64,000 nt of DNA from Auraticoccus cholistanensis. GTDB taxonomy: Bacteria; Actinomycetota; Actinomycetes; Propionibacteriales; Propionibacteriaceae. Of the stretch, positions 28,237 to 32,358 are shown in pieces. The DNA lies in the NCBI RefSeq assembly GCF_009742705.1, contig NZ_WPCU01000004.1, forward strand, positions 562,011 to 626,010, read 5' to 3'. Each line of letters begins with the position of its first letter. Position 1 is the stretch's first letter. Made by a program: the position numbers and the translations under genes. The notes under the pieces were generated by a model that was given only the letters and a program-made list of their open reading frames with translations, was not told where the DNA came from and did not search any database.

Positions 28237-28280
28237 AGCCGATCCGTACCACACCGGACGCGCGGACGGGACGGACCTGG

Positions 28281-28353
28281 TATCCCCAACGGGATTCGAA
28301 CCCGCGCTGCCGCCTTGAAAGGGCGGAGTCCTAGGCCGCTAGACGATGGGGAC
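28281..28353 (-). tRNA. tRNA-Glu (TTC)
   Basis: 73 nt. The acceptor stem GTCCCCA/TGGGGAT is closed by a G-U pair at the tip, with discriminator A. Anticodon loop CTTTCAA reads TTC. T-arm GCGGG-TTCGAAT-CCCGT is well formed. No CCA is encoded. A -10-like TAAGGT on the minus strand (28363-28368) lies about 10 bp upstream. Confidence 0.95.
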
Positions 28354-28429: not shown

Positions 28430-30025
28430 TCAGAGGGTGGTGATGTGGACGTGGTTCTTGTGGTTGGCGTTGTCGGAGCCGCGGTCGGCCATGTAGCGCC
28501 ACCCCTCACCGGCCCGCCGGACGTTCCAGATCCGCTGGTCGAAGATGATGTACTCCACCTTCAGCTCGCCGGCGTTGGCCTTGATCCACTCCGCCATCTC
28601 CTTGCCCAGCGCCTGGCTGGACGCCGAGGTGTAGTTCGGCAGCATCGCGTCGACCGCGCGCCCGGACGGGTGGTCCGGGATCGGGTCGGCGCGCACCCCG
28701 TAGTAGGTGGTGATCTGCGGGAACCGGGCCTGCAGCCGCGCCAGCAGGTAGCGGGAGTTGGCGGTCAGACCCGGCAGCGTGACGGTCTGGCCGCCGCCGC
28801 TGCCGCCGGCACCGCTGCTGGGGGCCTTGGTCGACAGGTACCGGGCGGTCACCCAGCGCACCGCGCCGTTGTAGACGATCTGCGCGCGTCCGTCGGCCTT
28901 GACGCCGGTGATGGCCAGCTTCGTGCCCCGCGGCACCTCGGAGTAGGTCGTGGAGTTCTTCGAGGCGCTGCGGATGTCCAGGGCGGTGGTGGCGTAGCGG
29001 TAGCCGACCACCTTCGGCAGCGCGGTGGAGCCGCTCGGGCCCGCGACGCCAGGCTTGCTCGTCGACAGGTACTGCTGCGACACCCAGCGCTTCTTGCCCT
29101 GGAAGGTCACCTCGGCGTAGCCGTTGCGGGTGGTGCCGTCGAACAGGAAGCCGTAGCCGCGGGCGGCGACGTCCACCACGCCGGCGCCGAGGCTCGGCCC
29201 GGTGCGCACGTTGAGGGCGACGGTGCTGTAGCGCCACGTCTCCTTGGCCGTCGAAGAGCCGGAGCCGGACGAGCCCGAGCTCGACCCCGAGGAGGGCTTC
29301 GTCCTCGACAGGTAGCGGGCCGACACCCAGCGCGTGCTGCCCTGGAAGGTGACCTCGGCGTAGCCGTTGCGGGTGGTGCCGTGGAACTTGAAGCCGTAGC
29401 CCTTCCCGGCCACGTCGACCACCCGGGCGCTGCCGGTGGGCTCGGTGCGCACGTTGAGCGCCGTCGTCGCGTAGCGCCAGCCGGCCGTGCTGGCCGCCTC
29501 GCCGGGCTTCTTCTCGCTCAGGTACTGCGAGGTCACCCAGCGCGCGCGGCCCTTGAAGTTGACCTCGGTGTAGCCGTTCCTGGTCGTCCCGGTGACCTGG
29601 AACCCGTAGCCCTTGCCGGCCACGGTCACCACCGCGGCGGTCAGCGACGGCCCGGTGCGTACGTTGAGCGCGGTGGTGCCGTAGCGCCAGCCCTTGGAGG
29701 GCTTGGCCGCCGGGGCGTCGTCGTCGTCGCTGCTCTCGACCACGTAGTCCGAGGAGATCCAGGCGGTCTGCCCGGAGTAGCTGACCTGCGTCCAGCCGGC
29801 CTTCCCGCTGCCCTTGACCGGCAGGCTCTGGCCGGTCTCGATCGTGCCGAGCACGCGGTAGCTGGTGCCCGGGCCGGTGCGGACGTTCACGTCCGTCGTC
29901 GCCGTCACCATCGAGTTCCGGGCCTCGGCGCTGGTGCTCACCACCACCGAGACCCCCGAGACGAGACCTGCGGTCACCACCAGGGTGGCCGCGGCCCCGC
30001 CGATCTTGCTGAGGGCGCTGTTCAC
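28430..30025 (-). CDS. Secreted protein with five SH3b repeats and a VanY/ARB_07466-like C-terminal domain
   Basis: 531 aa. An N-terminal signal/anchor (LVVTAGLVSGVSVVVSTSAEA near residues 15-35) is followed by five bacterial SH3 repeats, each with a VNVRTGPG-type motif (about 45, 120, 190, 275 and a divergent one near 350). Ser/Gly-rich linkers separate them. The C-terminal about 110 residues hold HPSGRAVDAMLP and the final HVHITTL, resembling D-Ala-D-Ala carboxypeptidase-like domains (His, Asp and HxH zinc-type residues). It should bind and trim peptidoglycan. GTG 30025 has GGGAGGA 8 nt upstream. A structured leader precedes it. Confidence 0.83.
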   Translation of the reverse strand: MNSALSKIGGAAATLVVTAGLVSGVSVVVSTSAEARNSMVTATTDVNVRTGPGTSYRVLGTIETGQSLPVKGSGKAGWTQVSYSGQTAWISSDYVVESSDDDDAPAAKPSKGWRYGTTALNVRTGPSLTAAVVTVAGKGYGFQVTGTTRNGYTEVNFKGRARWVTSQYLSEKKPGEAASTAGWRYATTALNVRTEPTGSARVVDVAGKGYGFKFHGTTRNGYAEVTFQGSTRWVSARYLSRTKPSSGSSSGSSGSGSSTAKETWRYSTVALNVRTGPSLGAGVVDVAARGYGFLFDGTTRNGYAEVTFQGKKRWVSQQYLSTSKPGVAGPSGSTALPKVVGYRYATTALDIRSASKNSTTYSEVPRGTKLAITGVKADGRAQIVYNGAVRWVTARYLSTKAPSSGAGGSGGGQTVTLPGLTANSRYLLARLQARFPQITTYYGVRADPIPDHPSGRAVDAMLPNYTSASSQALGKEMAEWIKANAGELKVEYIIFDQRIWNVRRAGEGWRYMADRGSDNANHKNHVHITTL

Positions 30026-30156
30026 GCTCGTCGTCCTCCCCGACGGCCTTCCCAAGCCGTCGATCGTGGAAGGAGCTGGTGCCACCGGTGACGCTTCCCC
30101 GGCACAAGTCCCATAGACAACTTGCGCCTCGTCTGTAACACCAACCCCATTTCTGG
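30026..30156 (-). ncRNA. Structured 5' leader of the SH3-repeat protein mRNA (candidate cis-regulatory RNA)
   Basis: On the minus strand two hairpins can form. The first is GGCGCAAGT/ACTTGTGCC (30101-30128), with a G-U pair that is an A-C mismatch on the plus strand. The second is CGACGGC/GCCGTCG (30041-30062), with an 8-nt loop, ending 1 bp from the Shine-Dalgarno sequence. A leader of about 130 nt is predicted. I do not recognise a known riboswitch; the c-di-AMP class, common before wall hydrolases, was looked for and not matched. Confidence 0.4.
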
Positions 30157-30633: not shown

Positions 30634-30957
30634 TCAGCCCCAGGTGAGCAGCATCACCATGGCGCCGACGCCGATGGTGACCAGCAGCAGGACCAGCACC
30701 AGGGCGTCGCGGCCGTCGGGCAGCGTGGCCGACGTCCGCAGCGCCGAGTCCGCCGCCAGGTAGCGGCGCCGGGTCTGCAGCCCGAGGAGCACCCCCAGGG
30801 TGACCGTGACCAGGGCCACTGCCATGCCGGCGAGCAGGGCGCGGGTGGCCAGCAGCCGGGCCACGACGAGACCGCACACGACCAGCGAGAGCAGCGTCCG
30901 CTGCCACGCCAGGCGGGTCCGCTCGTTCTGGGCCCCGGGGTCGAAGAGGCCGGTCAC
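30634..30957 (-). CDS. DUF202 membrane protein
   Basis: 107 aa with three hydrophobic segments. The N-terminus GLFDPGAQNERTRLAWQRTLLSL carries the NERTxLAWQRT motif of DUF202. Its GTG start overlaps the stop of the second DUF202 gene by 4 nt. Function is unknown. It converges on the zincin gene with a 2-bp gap. Confidence 0.85.
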   Translation of the reverse strand: MTGLFDPGAQNERTRLAWQRTLLSLVVCGLVVARLLATRALLAGMAVALVTVTLGVLLGLQTRRRYLAADSALRTSATLPDGRDALVLVLLLVTIGVGAMVMLLTWG

Positions 30958-31340
30958 GGTGCCAGCAGCAGCAGGAGCGCCACCAGCGCGACCACCACCA
31001 GCGCCCCGGTGAGCACCGGCATCATCGGCGAGGAGGGCAGCGGACGGCCCAGCCTCAGCGCCTGCTCGCTGCGCATCCAGCGCGCGAGCGCCGCCACCCC
31101 GGACAGCACGCCGCACAGGATCAGCGCGCCGGCGGCGAGGTGGGTGGCCCAGTCCCGCCCGGGGACCAGCTCCGAGACCGTCACCAGCGCCACGCCGGCG
31201 GTCAGGAAACCGAGCCCGGTGCGGATCCAGGCCAGGAAGGTGCGCTCGTTGGCGAAGGAGAACCGCGGGTCGGGCTCCTCGCCGACACCGAAGATCGACC
31301 GGGGCCAGCGGCGGTCGGGGGCGGCGTCCGGGTCGGTCAC
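30954..31340 (-). CDS. YidH-type DUF202 membrane protein
   Basis: 128 aa. DPRFSFANERTFLAWIRTGLGFLTAGVAL is the YidH/DUF202 signature, followed by two more hydrophobic helices. It is translationally coupled to the next DUF202 gene, so the two may form a heteromer. On the minus strand TAGCAT lies 7 nt before the GTG start, another leaderless-type arrangement. Confidence 0.87.
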   Translation of the reverse strand: MTDPDAAPDRRWPRSIFGVGEEPDPRFSFANERTFLAWIRTGLGFLTAGVALVTVSELVPGRDWATHLAAGALILCGVLSGVAALARWMRSEQALRLGRPLPSSPMMPVLTGALVVVALVALLLLLAP

Positions 31341-31386: not shown

Positions 31387-32067
31387 TCAGGCCCCGCCGA
31401 GCACCCAGCTGCGCCGCGAGTCGCTGACCCACCGCTCGCAGCGGCCCAGCGCCGCGTCCGGCAGCCAGCCGGCGGCCAGGTCGCTGCCGCTGACCGGGGA
31501 GGCTCCGGTGGCCGCGCAGACCGCCTCCCGGGCGAGGTCCCCGGCCACCACCGCCACCACCTGCAGCCGGCGCTGGATCCGGTTGACCTCGAGGGTGCGG
31601 ACCACCACCGGGTCGAGGTCGGGAGCCACCACCACGCAGGGGCGTGACTCCCGCACCGACGCCTCGAGGAAGGTCAGCAGCGCCCGGATGCTGCCGACCG
31701 GGTCCGCGCAGACCAGCACCCGGGGCCGGTCCAGCACGGCCCAGCCGCTCGGCGCGTCGGTGGTGAACCCGGGGGCGGCCATGCCCGCGCCGATGCGGAC
31801 GGACGCCGACAGCCCGGCTGCCACGGCGCTGCGTCCGGCGGGGTCGAGGTCGCTGGGGAGGACGTCGGCGGGAGGGCGTCCCGCGTCGTCGTCCAGGACG
31901 TAGCCGGGGACGGCCGTGCCGCCGGGGCCCGGGACCGCCCGGGCGGGAGGGCGCAGCAGCTCCTGCTCGCGGGCACGCTGCAGGTGGCGGTCGCGCAGGG
32001 CGCCCACGACGATCACGGCGACACCCAGCACGAGGACGACGACCAGCCAGAACACCCAGGTCTGCAC
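31387..32067 (-). CDS. Membrane-anchored protein with a GroEL apical-domain-like region
   Basis: 226 aa. A single hydrophobic segment (residues 3-23) is followed by a basic stop and a Pro/Asp linker to about 85. Residues 90-195 resemble the substrate-binding apical domain of GroEL/Cpn60: a GxxxPxFTTD entry motif, PRVLVCADPVGSIRALLTFLE, RPCVVVAPDLDPVVVRTLEVNRI, LQVVAVVA, and AATGASPVS near 186-193. Equatorial and intermediate (ATPase) domains are absent. Function unknown. GTG 32067 is chosen because GAGGAGGTG abuts an upstream GTG (32073) too closely. Neighbours on the same strand are DUF6458 and two DUF202 genes. Confidence 0.72.
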   Translation of the reverse strand: MQTWVFWLVVVLVLGVAVIVVGALRDRHLQRAREQELLRPPARAVPGPGGTAVPGYVLDDDAGRPPADVLPSDLDPAGRSAVAAGLSASVRIGAGMAAPGFTTDAPSGWAVLDRPRVLVCADPVGSIRALLTFLEASVRESRPCVVVAPDLDPVVVRTLEVNRIQRRLQVVAVVAGDLAREAVCAATGASPVSGSDLAAGWLPDAALGRCERWVSDSRRSWVLGGA

Positions 32068-32109
32068 CGTCACCTCCTCGCTCTCAGCCGGGCTGCGCGG
32101 TGCCGCTGC

Positions 32110-32358
32110 TCACTGGAGGTCGCGGCGGATGACCTCTTCGCGCGGCGGGTTGGTGCCGTCGTCGACGACGCGGCGGGTGGTGCTGCGGGTGCCGCGGCGG
32201 CTGGAGGCGAGGACGAGACCCAGGACGATCCCGAGCGCGCCGGCGCCCATCAGGATGTAGCCCACCATGGTCAGGTCCACGCCGCTGATGTTGTCGCTGA
32301 CGGCGAAGGCGAGGATCGCCCCGATGGCCAGCAGGGCGATGCCGGGTCCGAACTTCAT
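32110..32358 (-). CDS. DUF6458 family small membrane protein
   Basis: 82 aa with two hydrophobic helices (GIALLAIGAILAFAV and MVGYILMGAGALGIVLGLVLA) joined by SDNISGVDLT, the family signature. A basic tail (SSRRGTRSTTRRVVDDG) follows. Function unknown. An AGGAGG site on the minus strand precedes ATG 32358. Just 42 bp separate it from the GroEL-apical-like gene, so they may be co-transcribed. Confidence 0.85.
   Translation of the reverse strand: MKFGPGIALLAIGAILAFAVSDNISGVDLTMVGYILMGAGALGIVLGLVLASSRRGTRSTTRRVVDDGTNPPREEVIRRDLQ

Follow-up and report, generated by a model that had tools for sequence, protein, structure and literature searches.

The 64,000-nucleotide stretch of the Auraticoccus cholistanensis genome analysed here (hereafter the window) encodes a protein of 226 amino acids (aa) that is almost certainly an isolated, membrane-tethered and cytoplasm-facing apical domain of a group I chaperonin. 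The computed evidence comprises homology to GroEL, the predicted fold, loss of the ATPase domain and of most of the hinge, deletion of the segment equivalent to GroEL 282–286, a membrane helix with a basic flank, and conservation in the Propionibacteriaceae family. We propose, with a probability of about one half, that the protein would act as a natural ring-free minichaperone, i.e. a module anchored on the inner side of the membrane that binds polypeptides independently of ATP.

Gene and protein layout

The 226-aa protein consists of an N-terminal transmembrane helix, a linker of ~60 residues and the full GroEL minichaperone segment (~GroEL 192–336; Table 1). According to the list of open reading frames (ORFs), its frame lies on the minus strand, a point on which the first-pass annotation of this DNA was silent. 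The ORF caller starts the gene at a GTG at 32073 (31387–32073, 228 aa). The GTG at 32067, which gives the 226-aa form, is the better start because an AGGAGG motif lies upstream of it, and this choice agrees with the end coordinate of 32067 given by the first-pass annotation.

Residue numbers of the structural model refer to the 226-aa form; the Pfam, NCBIfam and phmmer searches and the family alignment (A1) used the 228-aa form. In what follows, the 23 members are the sequences of A1 (i.e. the window protein and 22 relatives), and the 23 loci are L031–L053, which belong to relatives and exclude the window; L034 is among the loci and is absent from A1. A linker motif, PPxRxIPG...PxYL, is common to the closer relatives in the alignment. 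A TGGCAGGCT-like motif recurs 6–7 bases 5' of the start codon in many of L031–L053; it resembles the −10 element of a leaderless transcript and is not clear in the window.

Table 1. Position of the gene, its protein segments and the neighbouring genes in the window
Feature	Position	Strand	Basis or remark
Membrane-anchored GroEL apical-like protein	31387..32067 (stop codon included)	-	226 aa
Shine-Dalgarno-like AGGAGG for the GTG at 32067	32073..32078	-	sequence inspection
N-terminal transmembrane helix, residues 1–25, followed by D-R and a basic stretch	31993..32067	-	model and charge count
Juxtamembrane basic region and linker, residues 26–86	31810..31992	-	low-confidence stretch within 39–70
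Apical (minichaperone) domain, residues 87–226, equivalent to GroEL 190–336	31390..31809	-	fold and profile
Helix H equivalent, model residues 127–140, bearing the GroEL L234/L237 positions	31648..31689	-	
Helix I equivalent, model residues 153–165, bearing the L259/T261/V263/V264/N265 positions	31573..31611	-	
Site of the GroEL 282–286 (GDRRK) deletion, residues about 176–178	31534..31542	-	family-wide
DUF6458 membrane protein, directly upstream	32110..32358	-	Pfam; in 2 of 23 relatives' loci
DUF202 membrane protein, directly downstream	30954..31340	-	Pfam; DUF202 in 8 of 23 relatives' loci
Second DUF202 protein, likely GTG start at 30957	30634..30957	-	Pfam and sequence
Protein with five SH3_3 repeats	28430..30085	-	Pfam; in 20 of 23 relatives' loci

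Homology to GroEL and predicted fold

The window protein resembles GroEL far more closely than chance would allow. It is matched by eight NCBIfam GroEL models (E-values of 4.7e-12 to 1.8e-7), and a phmmer search of PDB sequences returns an ancestral chaperonin (7e-9) and the isolated apical domain 1srv (1.4e-8, residues 96–226), the best 60 of 65 matches all being chaperonins by name. A profile of the 23 members finds chaperonins in the PDB sequences from an E-value of 1.2e-23 over profile positions 77–225, and the 60 sequences listed are group I chaperonins. Against a profile built from 18 GroEL apical domains (17 retrieved sequences and an E. coli segment entered by hand), the window protein reaches 43.7 bits; among 943 shuffled or reversed controls the highest score is 6.4 bits. 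Twenty of the 23 members exceed that control; L050 (5.9 bits), L052 (5.0 bits) and L051 (1.2 bits), taken singly, fall below it. The best NCBIfam GroEL model likewise matches 20 of the 23 members at E ≤ 0.01. Identity to GroEL is 23–29% in most of the alignments listed, and the matches cover only about GroEL 176–336.

The Pfam searches gave a different picture: no chaperonin model of Pfam-A matches the window protein at E ≤ 1, and the Pfam chaperonin family, which we take to be PF00118 (Cpn60_TCP1), matches none of the 23 members at E ≤ 0.01. Neither a kinase nor any other significant Pfam domain was found in the window protein. Weak matches to DUF5632 (0.044), CcmH (0.21), DUF4381 (0.27) and DUF2897 (0.79) lie below the cut-offs of these families and were dismissed.

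An AlphaFold model was built from a five-sequence alignment (the window protein and four relatives, from Desertihabitans aurantiacus, Microlunatus kandeliicorticis, Enemella evansiae and a Propionibacteriaceae metagenome-assembled genome), with a mean pLDDT of 79.6 and a pTM of 0.68. It contains a long N-terminal helix (residues 3–38), a linker in which residues 39–48 and 51–70 fall below a pLDDT of 50, and a domain that begins near residue 76. In Foldseek, GroELs and isolated apical domains rank at the top (best E-value 1.4e-12), with TM-scores normalized by target of 0.84–0.87 to the isolated apical domains 1dk7, 1srv and 1jon. VIA-align superposes 136 of 145 residues on 1srv (T. thermophilus GroEL 192–336) with a Z-score of 20.0 and an rmsd of 1.6 Å, and gives a Z-score of 19.7 to both 1jon and 1dk7. 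The structural match stops at GroEL 336, where the window protein ends, and apical residues 337–376 are absent. The equatorial ATPase domain is missing and the intermediate domain nearly so: ahead of the apical domain, no more than some 15 residues (GroEL 176–190) align. Against viral structures, Foldseek returned eight matches at E ≤ 0.001, of which the six named are chaperonins of 511–609 aa; a scan of viral contigs with the window protein gave four pattern matches and no relative.

The first-pass annotation had read the protein as an isolated GroEL apical-like domain lacking the ATPase domains. NCBIfam, phmmer, the family profile and the AlphaFold fold all bear this out, and the ATPase domains are missing from the window protein and from all 23 members. 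Its proposed comparison of a predicted structure with the GroEL apical domain likewise came out as expected, with AlphaFold, Foldseek and VIA-align agreeing on that fold. The profile comparison with chaperonins also came out in its favour: NCBIfam GroEL models and PDB sequences match significantly, although no Pfam-A chaperonin model does. The apical domain itself is present, but by structural alignment it runs over about residues 89–226 rather than 90–195 as originally proposed.

Membrane anchor and topology

A single N-terminal membrane helix had also been predicted; it is found in the window protein and holds in all 23 members, in each of which hydrophobicity within the first 60 residues peaks at the very N-terminus. 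With member start codons picked by the analyst, zero or one basic residue precedes the helix and two to six K/R lie in the next 15 residues in 23 of 23 members. Because the basic flank follows the helix, the positive-inside rule predicts an external N-terminus and a cytoplasmic apical domain. A domain facing the cytoplasm is therefore not a secreted or extracytoplasmic chaperone.

Ring contacts and client groove

Conservation was assessed in an alignment of 147 columns in which the 23 members stand beside the E. coli segment and 17 GroEL apical domains from the same order. We take GroEL positions 197, 245, 255, 282–286 and K327 to be contacts to the neighbouring subunit in the ring. Residues 282–286 are deleted in all 23 members and present in all 17 GroELs, and residue 281 is deleted in 21 members. 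Positions 197 and 327 are lysine in 17 of 17 GroELs; K/R occurs at the former in none of the members and at the latter in seven. Putative ring-contact positions are partly retained at 255 (E/D in GroEL), which is D in 8 of 23 members, and at 245, which is R in 13.

The client groove of GroEL is presumably lined by Y199, Y203, F204, L234, L237, E238, L259, T261, V263, V264 and N265. Asparagine at 265 is kept in 22 of 23 members, and its column ties for first among those not deleted (ranks 1–6 are wholly deleted columns). The F204 position is F in 19 members (rank 17 of 147). L237 is L in 16 and V/I/F/M/C in the other seven, i.e. hydrophobic in all 23 (rank 41); T261 is T in 16 (rank 42); L234 is L in 15 and M/V in five (rank 45); V264 is V/A in 19 (rank 53); and L259 is L or V in 17 (rank 76). 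Other positions have changed: V263 is A in 11 members and E in six, including the window protein (rank 60), and Y203 is replaced by R, D, E, G or A in 21 (rank 106). The Y199 and E238 columns rank 94 and 99. Groove columns are thus not uniformly the best conserved, with ranks from 7 to 106 of 147. Judged from these sequences, the client groove appears to be kept in part.

Several family-specific positions are conserved away from the groove (252 P in 19 of 23 members, 306 D in 17, 310 G in 21, 313 P in 19 and 331 W in 19), which suggests a new partner surface. This bears on the main rival explanation, that the protein is a dedicated adaptor whose apical fold holds one partner at the membrane (e.g. 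the tail of a DUF202 protein or another membrane protein) and has lost its promiscuity; we regard this as possible, if somewhat doubtful. The residues G 310, P 313, W 331 and P 252 outside the groove would fit such a role, as would the conserved linker motif of the closer relatives and the exchange of V263 and Y203 for charged or polar residues. A precedent exists in the Fab1_TCP domain of PIKFYVE, which is most similar to the apical domain of CCT3 according to an excerpt of PMC2846930. Loss of promiscuity sits less easily with the groove itself: five to eight of eight groove positions are hydrophobic in each member, a raw count with Ala included and without a chance control, so that no member has fewer than five.

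Gene neighbourhood

The first-pass annotation had placed the gene beside DUF6458 and two DUF202 membrane genes, and Pfam identifies all three in the window. The two DUF202 genes share four bases (GTGA, 30954–30957, minus strand), which suggests translational coupling. Past them lie a zincin-like peptidase gene on the other strand and then the gene of the SH3_3-repeat protein; a tRNA-Glu gene (28278–28353, minus strand) directly adjoins the latter. No mention of DUF6458 was found in the open-access literature searched.

Whether these neighbours recur in other genomes was answered from the 23 loci (5.3–13 kb; tblastn E ≤ 1e-3). The SH3-repeat protein is the most constant neighbour among those tested (20 loci), followed by the zincin (14 loci). 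DUF202 does recur (eight loci), but DUF6458 is found in two, and neither is a constant companion. Linkage within one family can persist by descent and is therefore weak evidence of joint function.

For the dedicated adaptor, the loci point both ways. DUF202 genes lie directly downstream in 8 of 23, and in one (L034:5150–6277; G003:C691) the apical-domain frame continues into DUF202 with no stop between; 15 of the 23 give no DUF202 match. The fusion in L034 may be an error because its assembly is split into 770 contigs. A genuine fusion would place the apical domain and DUF202 on the same side of the membrane.

The neighbourhood also bears on a second, improbable alternative, that the protein recruits the ordinary chaperonin, its groove binding the GroES mobile loop or docking GroEL/GroES at the membrane. 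GroEL binds GroES and polypeptides through shared sites, as stated in an excerpt of PMC2695268, and the L234, L237 and V264 positions are largely kept; yet Y203 and V263 have changed, both groEL matches in the window's genome fall on a different contig, and no CIRCE heat-shock operator occurs in the 64-kb window at up to three mismatches.

Distribution and evolution

At least 147 of 198 Propionibacteriaceae genomes carry a listed match to the family (E ≤ 9.0e-28), and weaker members may exist beyond the matches listed. The list holds 148 matches, with one genome (G142) counted twice. That genome carries two family matches, on contigs C93 and C71 (E-values of 6.7e-76 and 5.0e-43). Among the 147 positive genomes, the matches in G793, G832, G847 and G848 are clearly partial, and those in G757, G761 and G786 begin at profile position 18–26. 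One stop codon occurs in 8 of the 148 listed matches; in G010, G019, G023 and G029, read in frame, it is the gene's own end, and the other four are G106, G161, G773 and G781.

Three overlapping samples covered wider taxonomic ranges. Among the matches listed, the order sample (196 genomes, 75 of Propionibacteriaceae and 121 of three other families) contains none outside the family below an E-value of 5.5e-26; in the class sample (296 genomes, three of Propionibacteriaceae) the best outside match is 7.5e-28 and lies in a 545-aa frame; and in the phylum sample (296 genomes) only the window's own genome passed 1e-29. The matches outside Propionibacteriaceae, among those listed in the three samples, are long GroEL-like frames or frames cut by contig ends. 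A diverged relative outside the family could be hidden because GroEL itself fills the matches listed. No remnant was found near SH3-like proteins in G013, G022, G034 and G037, genomes without a listed match (tblastn E ≤ 0.01). Two candidates were judged to be chance matches: G026:C8 (1.4e-4, one stop, within Propionibacteriaceae), for which the family profile gives an E-value of 0.1 at best, and G056:C1 (4.8e-4, outside the family, in a 273-aa frame), for which it gives 0.089 at best.

In an unrooted tree, a branch with support 100/99 separates the 23 members from 18 GroEL rows. The tree, being unrooted and having a long branch between the two groups (1.35 changes per column), does not place the members among GroEL paralogues. 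We infer that the family likely had a single origin in the ancestry of Propionibacteriaceae.

Fast evolution and the long branch to GroEL, together with the 51 of 198 family genomes that have no listed match, might be read as a decaying GroEL fragment or an annotation artefact without function. The dN/dS values of 0.58–0.91 in more distant pairs point the same way, but they are unreliable through divergence and base composition and were set aside. Such decay is very improbable given matches in at least 147 genomes, the same architecture in 23 of 23 members and a dN/dS of about 0.23 in the closest pair (L050–L052). Least credible of all is an unrelated swivelling beta/beta/alpha domain that merely resembles GroEL: Pfam-A's want of a chaperonin match at E ≤ 1 would agree with it, but the NCBIfam, family and GroEL apical profiles find GroEL specifically and strongly.

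Proposed mechanism

The ring-free minichaperone would have arisen from a group I chaperonin apical domain trimmed to about GroEL 192–336, with ring assembly presumably lost. One reverse signal-anchor helix would hold this domain at the plasma membrane, on the cytoplasmic side. Near the membrane, its helix H/I groove may bind polypeptides that are unfolded, nascent or bound for export by their extended hydrophobic or amphipathic stretches; alternatively, the ligand could be the tail of a partner. Binding would be reversible and need neither ATP nor GroES, and clients would be kept from aggregating or be handed on.

Helices H and I form the binding interface of GroEL, and the isolated GroEL apical domain suppresses aggregation, as described in an excerpt of PMC4973282. 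An isolated apical domain, especially one truncated at the C-terminus, assists refolding without ATP, according to the part of PMC2695268 available to us. A holdase-like role is plausible as a putative function of the window protein. Tentatively, it may be the first natural minichaperone, which in Propionibacteriaceae would hold membrane and exported proteins, or pass them on, without ATP.

Comparison with known systems

Both the fold and the homology are already known. What is new is the architecture, that of a natural membrane-tethered minichaperone with putative chaperone activity. A search by title and abstract found no description of a natural isolated GroEL apical domain in the open-access literature, subscription papers lying outside its scope.

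With the group I chaperonin GroEL/Cpn60, the window protein has in common a homologous apical domain, helices H and I, and apparently part of the client groove. In contrast to it, the window protein has no equatorial domain and almost no intermediate domain, is membrane-bound and counts 226 rather than about 540 aa.

The engineered GroEL minichaperones (191–345, 191–376 and T. thermophilus 192–336) have the same fold and nearly the same boundaries and likewise lack ATPase and ring. Unlike these, the window protein is natural, bears a membrane helix and linker, and lacks GroEL 282–286. Action of the apical domain outside the cage has been argued from engineered fragments, as an excerpt of PMC2695268 indicates; a conserved natural protein with near-minichaperone boundaries makes it a question of real biology. 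Moreover, a family spanning about 147 genomes could reveal which groove residues stay once the constraints of ring, ATP and GroES are lifted.

The Fab1_TCP domain of PIKfyve/Fab1 is, according to the consulted portion of PMC2846930, likewise an apical-like chaperonin domain outside a chaperonin. It differs in being of CCT-type origin and part of a large eukaryotic lipid kinase, whereas the window protein is of group I and has no kinase domain. With this CCT-like domain as the one precedent found, the window protein would be an unusual bacterial case in which a group I apical domain forms part of a protein that is not built like a chaperonin.
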